Of a stretch of DNA of 64,000 bases, positions 2,976-10,281 are shown piece after piece. Position 1 is the first letter of the stretch. Every line of letters starts with the position of its first letter. The position numbers and the translations under genes were made by a program. Source of the DNA: Flavobacteriales bacterium. GTDB taxonomy: Bacteria; Bacteroidota; Bacteroidia; CAIKAF01. Location of the stretch: assembly GCA_022402535.1 (NCBI GenBank), contig JAKRSD010000015.1, forward strand, positions 106,970 to 170,969. Direction: 5' to 3'. Below the pieces are notes generated by a model. That model worked only from the letters and a program-made list of their open reading frames with translations, was not told where the DNA came from and did not search any database.

Positions 2976-4683
<1,708 letters not shown>

Positions 4684-4745
4684 TAAATTCGTTGCCTGAT
4701 TGTATTGCCCCCAATCAGCTAAATACATTTTGAAATGTTCAAAAA

Positions 4746-4781: not shown

Positions 4782-5015
4782 ATGAAAACATTGTCACTCA
4801 AGCTCGACGAAGTACTTTTTAAAGAAACAGAGGAATTGCTTGAAAAAATAAAGAAACCCAGAAATCGGTATATTAACGAAGCATTACAATATTACAATCG
4901 TATTCAGAAAAAGAAAATGATTGAAAAAATGCTTGTGTCAGAGTCAAAACTCGTGAGTGAGGAGTCCTTAAAGGTACTGGGAGAATTTGAAAAACTGGAC
5001 GACTATGACAGCTAA
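4782..5015 (+). CDS. Ribbon-helix-helix-type antitoxin (MazE/ParD-like)
   Basis: 77 aa; MKTLSLKLDEVLFKETEELLEKIKKPRNRYINEALQYY; overlaps the MazF start. Confidence 0.75.
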   Translation: MKTLSLKLDEVLFKETEELLEKIKKPRNRYINEALQYYNRIQKKKMIEKMLVSESKLVSEESLKVLGEFEKLDDYDS

Positions 5016-5352
5016 AAAGTATGAGGTTTGGCTTGCAAATTTAGATCCGAGATTTGGAACAGAAACCGGCAAAACGAGACCTGTATTAGTGGTACAGACG
5101 GACATTTTAAATAAAGTACATCCGTCAACCCTGATTTGTCCGATAACGACTAATGTGCAACTTGAGAGTAAAATACTACGTGTTCATTTAAAAAAAGGGA
5201 CAGCCAAAGTTAAAGAAAACTGCGATGTAATGATAGATCAGTTAAGAGCCATTGACAACAAAAGATTAATAAAGAAAATTGGAGAGTTGCCTAAAGAACT
5301 CACTGAAAGAGTGCGGGAAAACCTTAAAATTGTTTTAGATTTAAACGATTAG
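5005..5352 (+). CDS. mazF: MazF/PemK-family endoribonuclease toxin
   Basis: YEVWLANLDPRFGTETGKTRPVLVVQTDILN...STLICPITTN; ATG at 5005 overlaps the antitoxin stop. Confidence 0.88.
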   Translation: MTAKKYEVWLANLDPRFGTETGKTRPVLVVQTDILNKVHPSTLICPITTNVQLESKILRVHLKKGTAKVKENCDVMIDQLRAIDNKRLIKKIGELPKELTERVRENLKIVLDLND

Positions 5353-5373
5353 GCTATATAGGCCCACTGCCCG

Positions 5374-5462
5374 GCGGAATGGACGGCATGATGTAATCAG
5401 ATGCCACAAACCAAAGTATAACACAAAGCCACTCCGTAAGGGGTGGCTTTTTTGTTGGAAAT
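5374..5462 (+). repeat. groEL 3'-end/terminator direct repeat, copy B (displaced groEL tail remnant)
   Basis: ccactgcccggcggaatggacggcatgatgtaa encodes [10 protein letters not shown]; followed by near-identical 3' UTR and terminator. Confidence 0.88.
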
Positions 5463-5628: not shown

Positions 5629-6858
5629 ATGATAGAAATAAAATCAGACTACTTTGATAAAGCAGTCAACAAATACTTAAATCATATCGAAAGTTTATGG
5701 ACTTCAATGCCTGTTGTATTAAAAACAATTGAAAGAACCAAGAACAGTGCTATTTTAGAACACAATGAATTTTTAAACAATAATTGTAATTTTATTGAAA
5801 GTGAAAATCACTTCTTAATTCCAATTGAACACATTAGAAAAAATACCCAATTAAGGAAATCTGTTGACAATTCGACAACTGCAATAAAAATAATTAAGAG
5901 AAATTTTTTAGTTTCAATCATTAGCCAGTTTGATACGTACGTTTCAGATTTAATAAAAGCAATCTTTGAAGTGCGACCAGAGATTATTCAGAACTCAGAA
6001 AAACAGCTCACTTTTTCGGAATTAAATAGATTCAAAAGTATTCAAGACGCTCAAGACTATATAATTGAAAAAGAAATTGAAACTGTTCTTAGAGAGAGTT
6101 ACACAGAACAATTTAAGTGGTTTGAAAATAAACTAAAAATTCAATTAAGAAAAGATCTTTCAATTTGGGAGACGTTCATAGAAATAACTCAAAGAAGAAA
6201 TTTGTTTGTACATAATGATGGAAAAATATCAACACAATATTTAAATGTTTGTAAAGAAAACAACGTACAATTGGATGATAAATTAAAAGTAGGGGACGAA
6301 CTTGATGTTGGATTAAAATACTTTGATAAATCTTTTAAATGTCTTTTTGAAATAGGAGTTAAATTAAATCAGGTAATAAGACGTAATCTATTGCCTGACG
6401 AATTAGAAAAGGCAGATAATTCATTTTTAAATATTTCATTTGAATTAATTCAGAATAGCCAATTGGACTTAGCTAAAACGCTTTATGATTTTTCTGATAA
6501 GTACATCAAGAAATATTCTAATGAAGATCTAAAGCTCAGGATTTTGCTTAATAGAGCACAAACATATAAATGGTTAGACAAAGAAAAAGAATGTACAGAA
6601 ATTATAAATTCAATTGATTGGACTGCAACTGGAGATTTGTTTAAGTTAGCAAGTAAAGTATTAATTGATGATTATGTAAGTGCTTGTGAAATAATGAAAA
6701 ATATTGGAGACAATGAAAAGGTTTTAAATAAGACATTTTATAAGGATTGGCCAATATTTAAAAAATTTCGGGTTACAGACGAATTTAAAAAAACATATTT
6801 AGAAATATTCAAAACAGAATTTGAAATAACAGAAGATAAAAATAACAACGCCCAATAG
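5629..6858 (+). CDS. HEPN-domain protein, putative RNase, with helical/TPR-like C-terminus
   Basis: ITQRRNLFVHNDGKISTQYL carries the RX4H HEPN motif (R190-H195). Confidence 0.65.
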   Translation: MIEIKSDYFDKAVNKYLNHIESLWTSMPVVLKTIERTKNSAILEHNEFLNNNCNFIESENHFLIPIEHIRKNTQLRKSVDNSTTAIKIIKRNFLVSIISQFDTYVSDLIKAIFEVRPEIIQNSEKQLTFSELNRFKSIQDAQDYIIEKEIETVLRESYTEQFKWFENKLKIQLRKDLSIWETFIEITQRRNLFVHNDGKISTQYLNVCKENNVQLDDKLKVGDELDVGLKYFDKSFKCLFEIGVKLNQVIRRNLLPDELEKADNSFLNISFELIQNSQLDLAKTLYDFSDKYIKKYSNEDLKLRILLNRAQTYKWLDKEKECTEIINSIDWTATGDLFKLASKVLIDDYVSACEIMKNIGDNEKVLNKTFYKDWPIFKKFRVTDEFKKTYLEIFKTEFEITEDKNNNAQ

Positions 6859-6991
6859 CACATACTTAAAATTTGCGGATGATGTACAAGTCATTATTTA
6901 TTTTTTCAAATTCAGCCATTACAACAAATTTCCCAAATGTTGGTAATCAATTTAAAAACATATATCTTCACGTTACTTTAGAAAAGACTAA

Positions 6992-8389
6992 ATGAGTTCA
7001 AGTTTACTTCAACTACCTACACTACATTTATTAGAAAAGATCGGGGCAGGAAGTCACAAACCTGGCTCTGGAAGTGCTGCTTCTCTTAATGGTATTTTAT
7101 GCTGTAAATTATTGTTAACAGTAATTGAGCTGACACTTGATCCGAAGAGAGCTAAAAAGTATTCAAACTGTAAAGAAGAGTTTGAATCAATAAGAGATAT
7201 TATATTGAATGAAATTGGTCCTAGGCTTGAAGTTTTATTTGAGGAAGATTCAATACAATTCGATAAAGCCATAAAAATGAGAATTCAACGAGATGAAGAA
7301 ATAAACCAGAGATTAAAAAATTACCTTCAGAACGAATCATTAAAAGAACTTAAGTTATCAACTGAAATTCCTATAGAAATATCCCTTCTTTGCATTAGGC
7401 TTGGGAAATTTGCAGTAATAGTTTTCAAAAAAGGATTCAAGTCAGCTAGAGGTGATTCAGGTGTTGCACTAGGAAGTGCGTTATCTGGACTTTCTGGATG
7501 TATCTCTATCATAAGTTTGAATTTGCAATCATTCCCCAAAAGCCACTGGACTGATAATATTCATAACCAAAAAAATACCCTAAAGAAAGAATATCATGCG
7601 CTGAACAATCAAAATTCTAAGTTGCTTGAGGAATTAGACTCTGAAGCGATAAGAAAAAGTATTTTTCTGGCAGAATTTATTGACATAAGAAAGTCTTTTT
7701 ATGGAAAATCAAAAATATCGCATCATGAAATTGAAAATCTTGCAAGACGAATTCAAAATTCACTTTGGAAATATCGCGATTTGATTTGGTCAGATAATAC
7801 ACCTCAAAACGTATTTGACATTTTAAAACCTGAGAAAGTTATTGAAATTTTAAAATATGCATTTCACAAAGTTGAAACTTTAGGCTATAATGAACATAAC
7901 GAAGAAATTGCTGGTATAATAAATAATAGAGATTTTACAATTACTATATCAGGTATGTATAAAACTGATATAGTCAATTTCACTACTGCACATGAATTGG
8001 GACATGCTTTAATGCATGATAAAATAGAGTTACACAGAGATATACCGCTAGATGGAACTATTTCTGACAAAAACAGACCAATCGAGGAAATTCAGGCAGA
8101 CAAATTTGCTGCATTTTTTTTATTACCTTCTAAAATTGTAACACAACTTTTTCAAGAATTGTTTGGTGTAAGAAAATTAATAATTGATGAGCAAACGGCT
8201 CGTTTTCTTAATTTCAGTTCTATCGAAGATTTGCGGAAAAAAGTAAAAAATAAGCGTGACTTATCTAGGATTATTGCAAGTTGTGAATACTACAAATACA
8301 AGCATTTTATATCACTTTCAAAAATTTTTAATGTTTCAACAGAAGCCATGGCGATTAGATTGGAGGAATTGAACTTGATTGACTTGTGA
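6992..8389 (+). CDS. Cyclodeaminase/cyclohydrolase (FTCD_C)-like domain fused to ImmA/IrrE-family metallopeptidase
   Basis: N-term KPGSGSAASLNGILCCKLLLTVIELT...STEIPIEISLLCIRLGK...DSGVALGSALSGLSGCISIISLNL resembles FTCD_C; C-term TTAHELGHALMH...IEEIQADKFAAFFLLP is ImmA/IrrE-like (HELGH = 334-338). Confidence 0.75.
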   Translation: MSSSLLQLPTLHLLEKIGAGSHKPGSGSAASLNGILCCKLLLTVIELTLDPKRAKKYSNCKEEFESIRDIILNEIGPRLEVLFEEDSIQFDKAIKMRIQRDEEINQRLKNYLQNESLKELKLSTEIPIEISLLCIRLGKFAVIVFKKGFKSARGDSGVALGSALSGLSGCISIISLNLQSFPKSHWTDNIHNQKNTLKKEYHALNNQNSKLLEELDSEAIRKSIFLAEFIDIRKSFYGKSKISHHEIENLARRIQNSLWKYRDLIWSDNTPQNVFDILKPEKVIEILKYAFHKVETLGYNEHNEEIAGIINNRDFTITISGMYKTDIVNFTTAHELGHALMHDKIELHRDIPLDGTISDKNRPIEEIQADKFAAFFLLPSKIVTQLFQELFGVRKLIIDEQTARFLNFSSIEDLRKKVKNKRDLSRIIASCEYYKYKHFISLSKIFNVSTEAMAIRLEELNLIDL

Positions 8390-8491
8390 TTTGTCCCCAA
8401 ACTTCTGGTTTATTAAAAGCCCTTGAAAGTCATCGGGTGCTGGGCTTTGTTTAATACAGAAGCCAGTAATAATTAGATTTATAATATTTTG

Positions 8492-8675
8492 CTCAAGGTT
8501 GGTGTTTTCACCAACCTTTTTTTCTTTTTGTGCTATTTCTGCCCAGGTGATTGTTTCAGTAATTTTTTTCCAGCGTTTTTAACATACGGTACAGGTTGAG
8601 TTATTAAATAAATGTACTTATAGTGCTCCGATTCCTAAAGTTATCGGGACTCCACTTGGCCAACTGACAACCCGT
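8492..8675 (+). repeat. Long direct repeat R1, left copy (upstream of fic)
   Basis: ctcaaggttggtgttttcaccaacctt...tgctatttctgcccaggtgattgtttcag...tagtgctccgattcctaaagttatcgggactccactt; similar to 10097-10281. Confidence 0.85.
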
Positions 8676-8746
8676 TGGCGGTAATGTTTTTGCTGCACTT
8701 AGTATTAAACAAGCGACTCAGAAAGACGACCTAAAGCGGATTTGAC

Positions 8747-8811
8747 ATGCGGAGAATAGTTACAGTATTTGCCGCAAATATGCGGAGAAAAATGCTTATA
8801 TTTGCCGCAAC
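8747..8811 (+). promoter_or_regulatory. 33-bp tandem operator-like repeat in front of fic
   Basis: ATGCGGAGAA-N10-TATTTGCCGCAA at 8747 and 8780; palindrome CCGCA-AATA-TGCGG in the centre; TATATTTG resembles a Bacteroidota -7 box. Confidence 0.6.
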
Positions 8812-8825
8812 ATCTGTTTCAAAAA

Positions 8826-9923
8826 GTGGCTAAATACATTTACGAATACAAAAACTGGACAGACTTTACTTGGCGGGAAACTGACATCAATACCTTATTT
8901 GGTGAAGTCCGCAACCTGCAAGGTAAGATTGTAGGACAGATGAATACTTTGGGTTTTGCCACCAAAGAGGAAGCGACACTTACTACTTTGACGCTTGACG
9001 TAATCAAATCCTCTGAAATAGAAGGAGAAAAACTCGACTATGACCAAGTTCGTTCATCCATTGCAAGAAGACTTGGTATTAATATAGCCGGACTTGTTCC
9101 TGCAAATAGAAACGTAGAAGGTGTTGTTGAAATGATGCTTGATGCAACTCAAAACTATCAAAAACCACTGACAAACAAGCGACTGTTTGGCTGGCATTCG
9201 GCACTCTTTCCGACAGGACACAGCGGAATGCACAAAATAGAAGTTGGTCGCTATAGAACAGGTGAGATGCAAATAGTTTCAGGAGCAGTGGGAAAAGAAA
9301 AAGTTCACTATGAAGCGGTTCCTGCAAACAGAGTAAAAGAAGAAATGGACAGATTTTTAAAATGGTTCAACGATAATAATAAAATAGACCCGGTTCTAAA
9401 ATCTGCAATTGCTCATTTCTGGTTTATTATCATACATCCCTTTGACGATGGCAATGGAAGAATAGCAAGAGCAATTTCAGATTTAATGCTTGCCCGTGCA
9501 GATAGGACAACTGAACGATATTATAGTTTGTCAAGCCAAATTTTGGTTGAACGAAAACAGTATTACGAGATTTTGCAAAAGGTTCAACATAGCACTGGCG
9601 ATATTACAGAGTGGTTATATTGGTTTTTGCATTGCCTTAGAAATTCATTATTGGCAACAGAGGCTGCTCTGCAAAAAATATTGCGAAAAACGGAGTTCTG
9701 GAAAATTCACGAACGTAGTGCGTTTAACGAACGACAAAGATTAGTGTTAAACAAACTTTTTGACGGATTTGAAGGAAAACTGAAATCATCAAAGTGGGCA
9801 AAGATTGCCAAATGTTCACCCGATACTGCATTGCGTGACATTAAGGATTTAATTCAAAAGGGAATATTACGCCAGGAGCAACAGGGTGGACGAAGCACAA
9901 ACTACGAACTTGAAGACTTCTGA
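8826..9923 (+). CDS. Fic-domain protein (AMPylase-like, DUF4172 N-terminus, C-terminal winged helix)
   Basis: HPFDDGNGRIAR Fic motif; N-terminal inhibitory motif SSEIEG; listed ORF start (TTG 8769) lies in the operator, GTG 8826 (VAKYIYEYKNWTDFTW) fits better. Confidence 0.88.
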   Translation: MAKYIYEYKNWTDFTWRETDINTLFGEVRNLQGKIVGQMNTLGFATKEEATLTTLTLDVIKSSEIEGEKLDYDQVRSSIARRLGINIAGLVPANRNVEGVVEMMLDATQNYQKPLTNKRLFGWHSALFPTGHSGMHKIEVGRYRTGEMQIVSGAVGKEKVHYEAVPANRVKEEMDRFLKWFNDNNKIDPVLKSAIAHFWFIIIHPFDDGNGRIARAISDLMLARADRTTERYYSLSSQILVERKQYYEILQKVQHSTGDITEWLYWFLHCLRNSLLATEAALQKILRKTEFWKIHERSAFNERQRLVLNKLFDGFEGKLKSSKWAKIAKCSPDTALRDIKDLIQKGILRQEQQGGRSTNYELEDF

Positions 9924-10020
9924 AAGTAGCAGTACCACCAACACGGGTAACTGTTACCGACGCTGCGGTCGGCACTTGTGCACAACCCTCCCAAAATGAA
10001 AAAATGCGCTGAATTTTCTG

Positions 10021-10281
10021 CTCAACGTTGTTGTTTTCACCCACCTTTTTTCTGTATGACTTTTTTCAGCCTAAGTGATTGTTTCAGCATTTTTTACTCA
10101 AGGTTGATGTTTCCACCCACCTTTTTTCTGTTTGTGCTATTTCTGCCCAGGTGATTGTTTCAGCATTTTTTACTAGCGTTTTTTAACATACGATAAAGGT
10201 TGATTTATAAAATAAATGTACATTTAGTGCTCCGATTTCTAAAGTTATCGGGACGCCACTTCGCCAAGCGCCAAACCGTTA
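10021..10281 (+). repeat. Long direct repeat R1, right copy with an extra ~76-bp tandem partial unit
   Basis: Full copy 10097-10281 plus partial copy 10021-10096 (ctcaacgttgttgttttcacccacctttttt...gtgattgtttcagcattttttact). Confidence 0.85.

Follow-up and report, generated by a model that had tools for sequence, protein, structure and literature searches.

A cyclodeaminase-like domain fused to an M78 protease as a candidate single-gene sensor-protease, beside a HEPN gene best explained as a chance neighbour

Two adjacent genes in a Flavobacteriales genome, one encoding a HEPN protein (P0001) and the other a fusion of a cyclodeaminase-like domain to an ImmA/IrrE-type protease (P0002), raise the question of whether they form one two-gene system or are neighbours by chance, each with a role of its own. 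We analyzed a window of 64,000 nucleotides, i.e., the whole stretch of contig to which all positions refer. P0001 (positions 5629..6858, + strand) is an open reading frame for a 409-aa HEPN protein with TPR-like helices in its C-terminal part, and P0002 (6992..8389, + strand), supported by Pfam matches and full-length relatives, encodes a 465-aa FTCD_C–Peptidase_M78 fusion. An earlier note, made from this sequence, had described two adjacent same-strand genes in an AT-rich accessory stretch between a MazF module and a Fic cassette, and this description holds: both ORFs are present exactly as given, on the same strand and 133 bp apart, GC content is 26-32% at the two genes vs 45-54% on the groES/groEL side, both flanking modules are recognised (a PemK/MazF module 5′ of P0001, PF02452, E 4e-28, and a DUF4172-Fic protein 3′ of P0002), and distribution is patchy. 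The drop in GC content is consistent with the P0001/P0002 stretch being acquired DNA. A terminator-like hairpin is predicted downstream of P0002 (8495..8518, + strand) and none in the gap between the two genes, so that read-through from P0001 into P0002 is possible in the window genome.

The flanking modules have repeats of their own. Two copies of the groEL 3′ end with its terminator (4591-4684 and 5368-5462), 87-98% identical, bracket the MazEF module (4782-5352), which looks as if it had integrated at the end of groEL and restored that end; in none of 19 relatives checked is the gene directly 3′ of groEL a MazF, HEPN or fusion gene. The Fic cassette (8769-9923) is bounded by direct repeats of ~190 bp (8483-8676 and 10012-10280) that are ~87% identical, with one more partial copy and shorter related pieces elsewhere on the same contig.

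The fusion family and its protease half

The earlier proposal that P0002 joins a cyclodeaminase-like fold to an ImmA/IrrE protease is confirmed by Pfam, which finds an FTCD_C domain (cyclodeaminase/methenyl-THF cyclohydrolase-like) at residues 12-193 (7025..7570, + strand; PF04961, E 1.3e-20, 74.3 bits vs a cut-off of 24.5) and a Peptidase_M78 (IrrE/ImmA-like) core at residues 329-391 (7976..8164, + strand; PF06114, E 1.6e-10, 41.3 bits vs a gathering cut-off of 22). Scanning 85,488 species genomes yielded 13 full-length fusions (L031-L043, with L031 being the locus of genome G106), to which genome G424 adds one intact member (L076), giving 15 intact members including P0002. These are found in Bacteroidota, in one Planctomycetota MAG and in one Gammaproteobacteria MAG, i.e., with a patchy distribution, and all 15 have the same two-domain order and length. 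Among 149 relatives of the window genome, P0002 has one full-length relative, in G106, with 80% identity. Fourteen fusions align end to end, with H334, E335, H338, E366, D370, D86, R153, G154, D155 and S156 invariant. The HExxH zinc motif, HELGH, is located at residues 334-338 (7991..8005, + strand), with H334, E335 and H338 the same in all 14 members aligned, and is followed by a downstream acidic motif in which E366 and the pair A369 D370 are likewise invariant in these members; the C-terminal segment VS.eAMAIRLEEL is also conserved. No other M78 gene was found in the window genome.

Profile searches matched the protease half to CapP (7t5t) and IrrE (3dte/8slm), and among PADLOC models the matches were capP (E 5e-15) and RmrA (E 7e-9), with no known-system model in PADLOC spanning the whole fusion. 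CapP, an M78 protein of CBASS regulation, is thus the best PADLOC match and a PDB profile match to this half, but it has no FTCD_C domain, and no CapH or CBASS genes were recognised in the gene lists around the fusion. The RmrA/spr1629-type HTH-M78 proteins, of regulator or antitoxin type, resemble P0002 in placing an N-terminal domain before M78; the N-terminus of P0002 is FTCD_C rather than HTH, and it scores 36 bits against an NCBIfam cut-off of 335.

In many M78 proteases an HTH domain is fused to the protease, and a cognate XRE repressor, adjacent or fused, is usual for Peptidase_M78 (COG2856), if not universal. IrrE cuts DdrO, an XRE-type repressor, in trans in Deinococcus (PMC7907104), and ImmA cuts the XRE-type repressor ImmR, also in trans (PMC2701414). 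P0002 shares with the IrrE/PprI-DdrO and ImmA-ImmR systems the M78 zinc-protease family, the HExxH motif and a conserved C-terminal segment, and the extra sensor-like (GAF-like) domain of IrrE is comparable to the extra domain of P0002, although in P0002 this is an N-terminal FTCD_C and not an HTH or a C-terminal GAF-like domain. Known M78 proteases cleave XRE repressors, which argues for reading the fusion as an ImmA/IrrE-type regulator of the classical kind, one that would serve a mobile element or defence island by cutting a repressor encoded elsewhere and would not itself be a defence effector. A second point in favour is a fusion copy in genome G343 (L077), broken by a stop codon, that lies close to an XRE gene as well as to recombination genes of phage-like type. 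Against this reading, the family has no conserved adjacent XRE partner gene, unlike COG2856-Xre pairs: few members (e.g., L041 and L077) have an XRE-type regulator nearby, so a gene for the usual M78 substrate does not accompany the fusion, and no HTH gene recurs in the fusion flanks. In addition, the fusion is not found in viral contigs or phages. We therefore regard this reading as possible but doubtful.

The neighbours of the fusion are varied, with no neighbour family recurring in more than two fusion loci, and several are of defence type. Pfam identifies a BsuBI/PstI restriction-modification (R-M) system (L034), DUF6791-ThiF and DUF6527 (L035), SIR2 (L036), an AAA_21 ATPase with a second gene (L037), PIN (L039) and AbiTii (L043); a PtuA-like AAA ATPase is also among the neighbours, and TrlF-like PHP-ATPases, recognised by their sequence and mutually homologous, are near the fusion in L031 and L041. 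At E 1e-12, 130 flanking proteins matched 230 PADLOC models vs 56 for 125 control proteins, a comparison that is supportive and not conclusive, since PADLOC models overlap heavily, and in which the control is a small set of 12 arbitrary loci with many of its 56 matches coming from one HerA-SIR2 site. The fusion may have a role in defence or stress.

A divergent FTCD_C domain

Structure searches of both proteins had been proposed, and these were informative for P0002, where the first half matched FchA (7vg4, TM 0.87 of target) and TM1560 (1o5h) in Foldseek, and uninformative for P0001, whose best matches, to TPR proteins, were without significance. The AlphaFold2 model of P0002 has a pLDDT of 88; confidence is lowest over residues 1-24, where the conserved GAGSHKPGSGSA loop begins, and the ligand site is therefore modelled unreliably. 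All the fusions aligned have Asp86 (7247..7249, + strand), whose counterpart in rat FTCD (1tt9) is Asp412, the active-site residue of the cyclodeaminase. The FchA and FTCD cyclodeaminase domains thus have in common with P0002 the fold, the conserved Asp and a glycine-rich loop; P0002 differs in belonging to a separate clade with an SxRGDSGVA signature, in being fused to a protease and in being accessory rather than housekeeping. It scores 49 bits vs 275 for the NCBIfam FchA/FTCD equivalog, i.e., it falls outside that enzyme equivalog.

Phylogenetic analysis of 44 FTCD_C domains (15 fusions, 6 solo proteins and 23 canonical FTCD/FchA domains, including the window genome's own FTCD) placed the 15 fusions in one clade (98/94), and the fusions together with the six solo proteins in a branch (100/100) separate from the 23 canonical domains. 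By this sequence comparison, the fusion arose once, out of a divergent FTCD_C subfamily with the SxRGDSGVA signature; in the most divergent fusion (L076), ARGES replaces ARGDS. Relative to the 80% identical relative, dN/dS is 0.07 in both halves of P0002, and judged by these coding sequences both halves are under purifying selection. Three other origins were considered and rejected: P0002 as a sequencing or pseudogene artefact (dN/dS 0.07, full length conserved), P0002 as a duplicate of the housekeeping FTCD (separate clade, own FTCD in the genome), and a phage or viral origin of either protein, as no relatives of P0001 or P0002 were found in phages and viral contigs.

It is unlikely, in our view, that the FTCD_C half works as an enzyme whose turnover of a one-carbon folate, or of a related compound, is the effector step, with the M78 half being regulatory or self-processing. 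The invariance of Asp86 and Asp155, the match to the FchA fold and the equally strong purifying selection on the two halves all point towards activity, but the canonical PGGGS loop has become PGSGS and the usual ‘.SD.GVA’ segment has become SARGDSGVA, changes that suggest the substrate may have changed, and a separate housekeeping FTCD is already present in the window genome.

Solo FTCD_C proteins have neighbourhoods of their own. Three genomes encode a solo SxRGDSGVA-type protein within a tight cluster of GNAT-PIN and ASCH genes; the order of a GNAT-PIN protein of ~690 aa and then an ASCH protein is seen in L046, L047 and L048 (and in L132 and L133), and L048 continues with genes for a HEPN-like protein of 149 aa and a helicase of 964 aa. 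Two genomes other than these three have GNAT-PIN and ASCH-like neighbours with FTCD_C not in view. Solo FTCD_C genes are also located near TcmP and phage Gp37/Gp68-type genes in a Burkholderia plasmid (L025, NZ_CP117779.1) and in Cupriavidus (L049), and in L025 a 281-aa protein (P0006), with a possible HEPN-like motif read by eye, is encoded 26 bp 5′ of the solo FTCD_C. A search for a plasmid-borne fusion returned a solo FTCD_C relative only.

The HEPN protein and its relationship to the fusion

The HEPN active site has been defined as Ex3[KR]-Rx4-6H, and HEPN proteins are associated with R-M genes (PMC3710099). P0001 contains this signature inside a helical domain, as E185-x3-R189-R190-x4-H195 (EITQRRNLFVH; 6181..6213, + strand), and an alignment of six relatives has only ten invariant columns, among them E185, R189, R190 and H195. 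The RX4H motif reported earlier (RRNLFVHN) is thus real, with its catalytic residues invariant across the six aligned relatives, and the residues named for mutation, H195 in P0001 and E335 in P0002, are numbered correctly. P0001 has no match in Pfam or NCBIfam and a weak RTasHEPN match in PADLOC (E 9e-4), and its AlphaFold2 model (pLDDT 85.7) is all-helical. Judging from its motif, we infer P0001 to be a ribonuclease.

Relatives of P0001 often adjoin R-M genes, and others stand alone. For example, a relative comes after a type I R subunit in Crinalium, lies ahead of a type ISP enzyme in genome G208, and adjoins an Mrr-type gene in genome G490. In two Nostoc plasmids (L103 and L104), an Eco57I/TaqI_C methylase, a 183-aa protein of unknown type, a P0001-type HEPN protein and a PLD-SNF2 helicase are tightly packed, and this four-gene operon looks like a candidate restriction-type defence system. 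P0001 therefore resembles the R-M-associated HEPN ribonucleases (PMC3710099) in its Ex3[KR]-Rx4-6H site and, through its relatives, in its association with R-M genes, but differs in having no Pfam family, in its TPR-like C-terminal part and in having no adjacent R-M gene in the window.

The earlier note had proposed that the two genes form a system of a HEPN protein and a protease, and had named a lack of conserved co-occurrence in other genomes as a result that would count against it. In a survey of such genomes, the adjacency was conserved nowhere else that we examined. The flanks (~6 kb, with shorter flanks at L031, L037, L038 and L042) of the 14 other intact fusions contain no relative of P0001 (blastp, nothing below E 0.05) and no gene with an Ex3[KR]R-type HEPN motif, and none of the eight P0001-relative loci examined (L027, L028, L078, L079, L081 and the cyanobacterial plasmids L102-L104) contains a fusion gene. 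Among the 149 relatives of the window genome, the P0002 relative (in G106) and the P0001 relative (in G072, 37% identity) are in different genomes, and in samples of 297 genomes from its class and 379 from its phylum the window genome alone has both. In addition, for 6 of the 15 fusions the neighbour on either side is on the opposite strand, so the fusion gene can stand alone. This lack of co-occurrence at other loci indicates that the pairing of P0001 and P0002 is a local juxtaposition, and the two-gene system is rejected on this basis. That a HEPN RNase effector is controlled by the FTCD_C-M78 protease is highly improbable: the two genes are adjacent on one strand across a 133-bp gap with no predicted terminator, and HEPN or HEPN-like genes adjoin solo FTCD_C genes of this subfamily at two loci (L048, and L025 by eye), but no other fusion locus has a HEPN gene in its flanks, and P0001 relatives are found with R-M genes or alone, with both genes together only in the window genome of these shared samples. 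On the best explanation, P0001 would be a restriction-associated HEPN ribonuclease in its own right, placed by chance beside P0002 in an accessory region.

Proposed role of the fusion

We favour, at about even confidence, a reading of P0002 as a self-contained, single-gene sensor-protease in which the FTCD_C domain gates a trans-acting protease of IrrE/ImmA type. Its FTCD_C domain at the N-terminus, on a branch now apart from housekeeping folate metabolism, would most likely oligomerise and bind a folate-like or other small ligand, as the earlier note had supposed for a small molecule or folate; occupying the place that HTH takes in many ImmA-type proteins, it would gate the C-terminal M78 zinc protease, which upon stress or infection would, by analogy with IrrE-DdrO and ImmA-ImmR, cut a protein whose gene lies at another locus. 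The literature that we covered, in part, on FTCD_C or cyclodeaminase domains with M78/ImmA or with phage defence does not describe the fusion; the FTCD_C and M78 parts are known, and their combination and one-gene organisation appear to be new.

A bolder version of the sensor-protease, which we hold to be rather unlikely, makes the fusion an immune protease encoded by a single gene. It would respond to a folate or one-carbon metabolite when phage nucleotide synthesis disturbs it, and would then cut a host or phage protein. If true, the fusion would be the founder of a larger group in which SxRGDSGVA FTCD_C proteins were recruited to defence loci as sensors or enzymes, some of them joined to a protease and others encoded next to GNAT-PIN/ASCH, HEPN and helicase genes.

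Separating two chance neighbours keeps a false two-gene system out of catalogues, and the relatives of P0001 point to a distinct HEPN family within restriction operons. M78 proteases are widespread stress switches, and their activating signal is clear in few cases. In the fusion, the regulatory half has the recognisable fold of a metabolite enzyme, which makes folates a concrete candidate ligand and offers a mutant pair, D86A and E335A.
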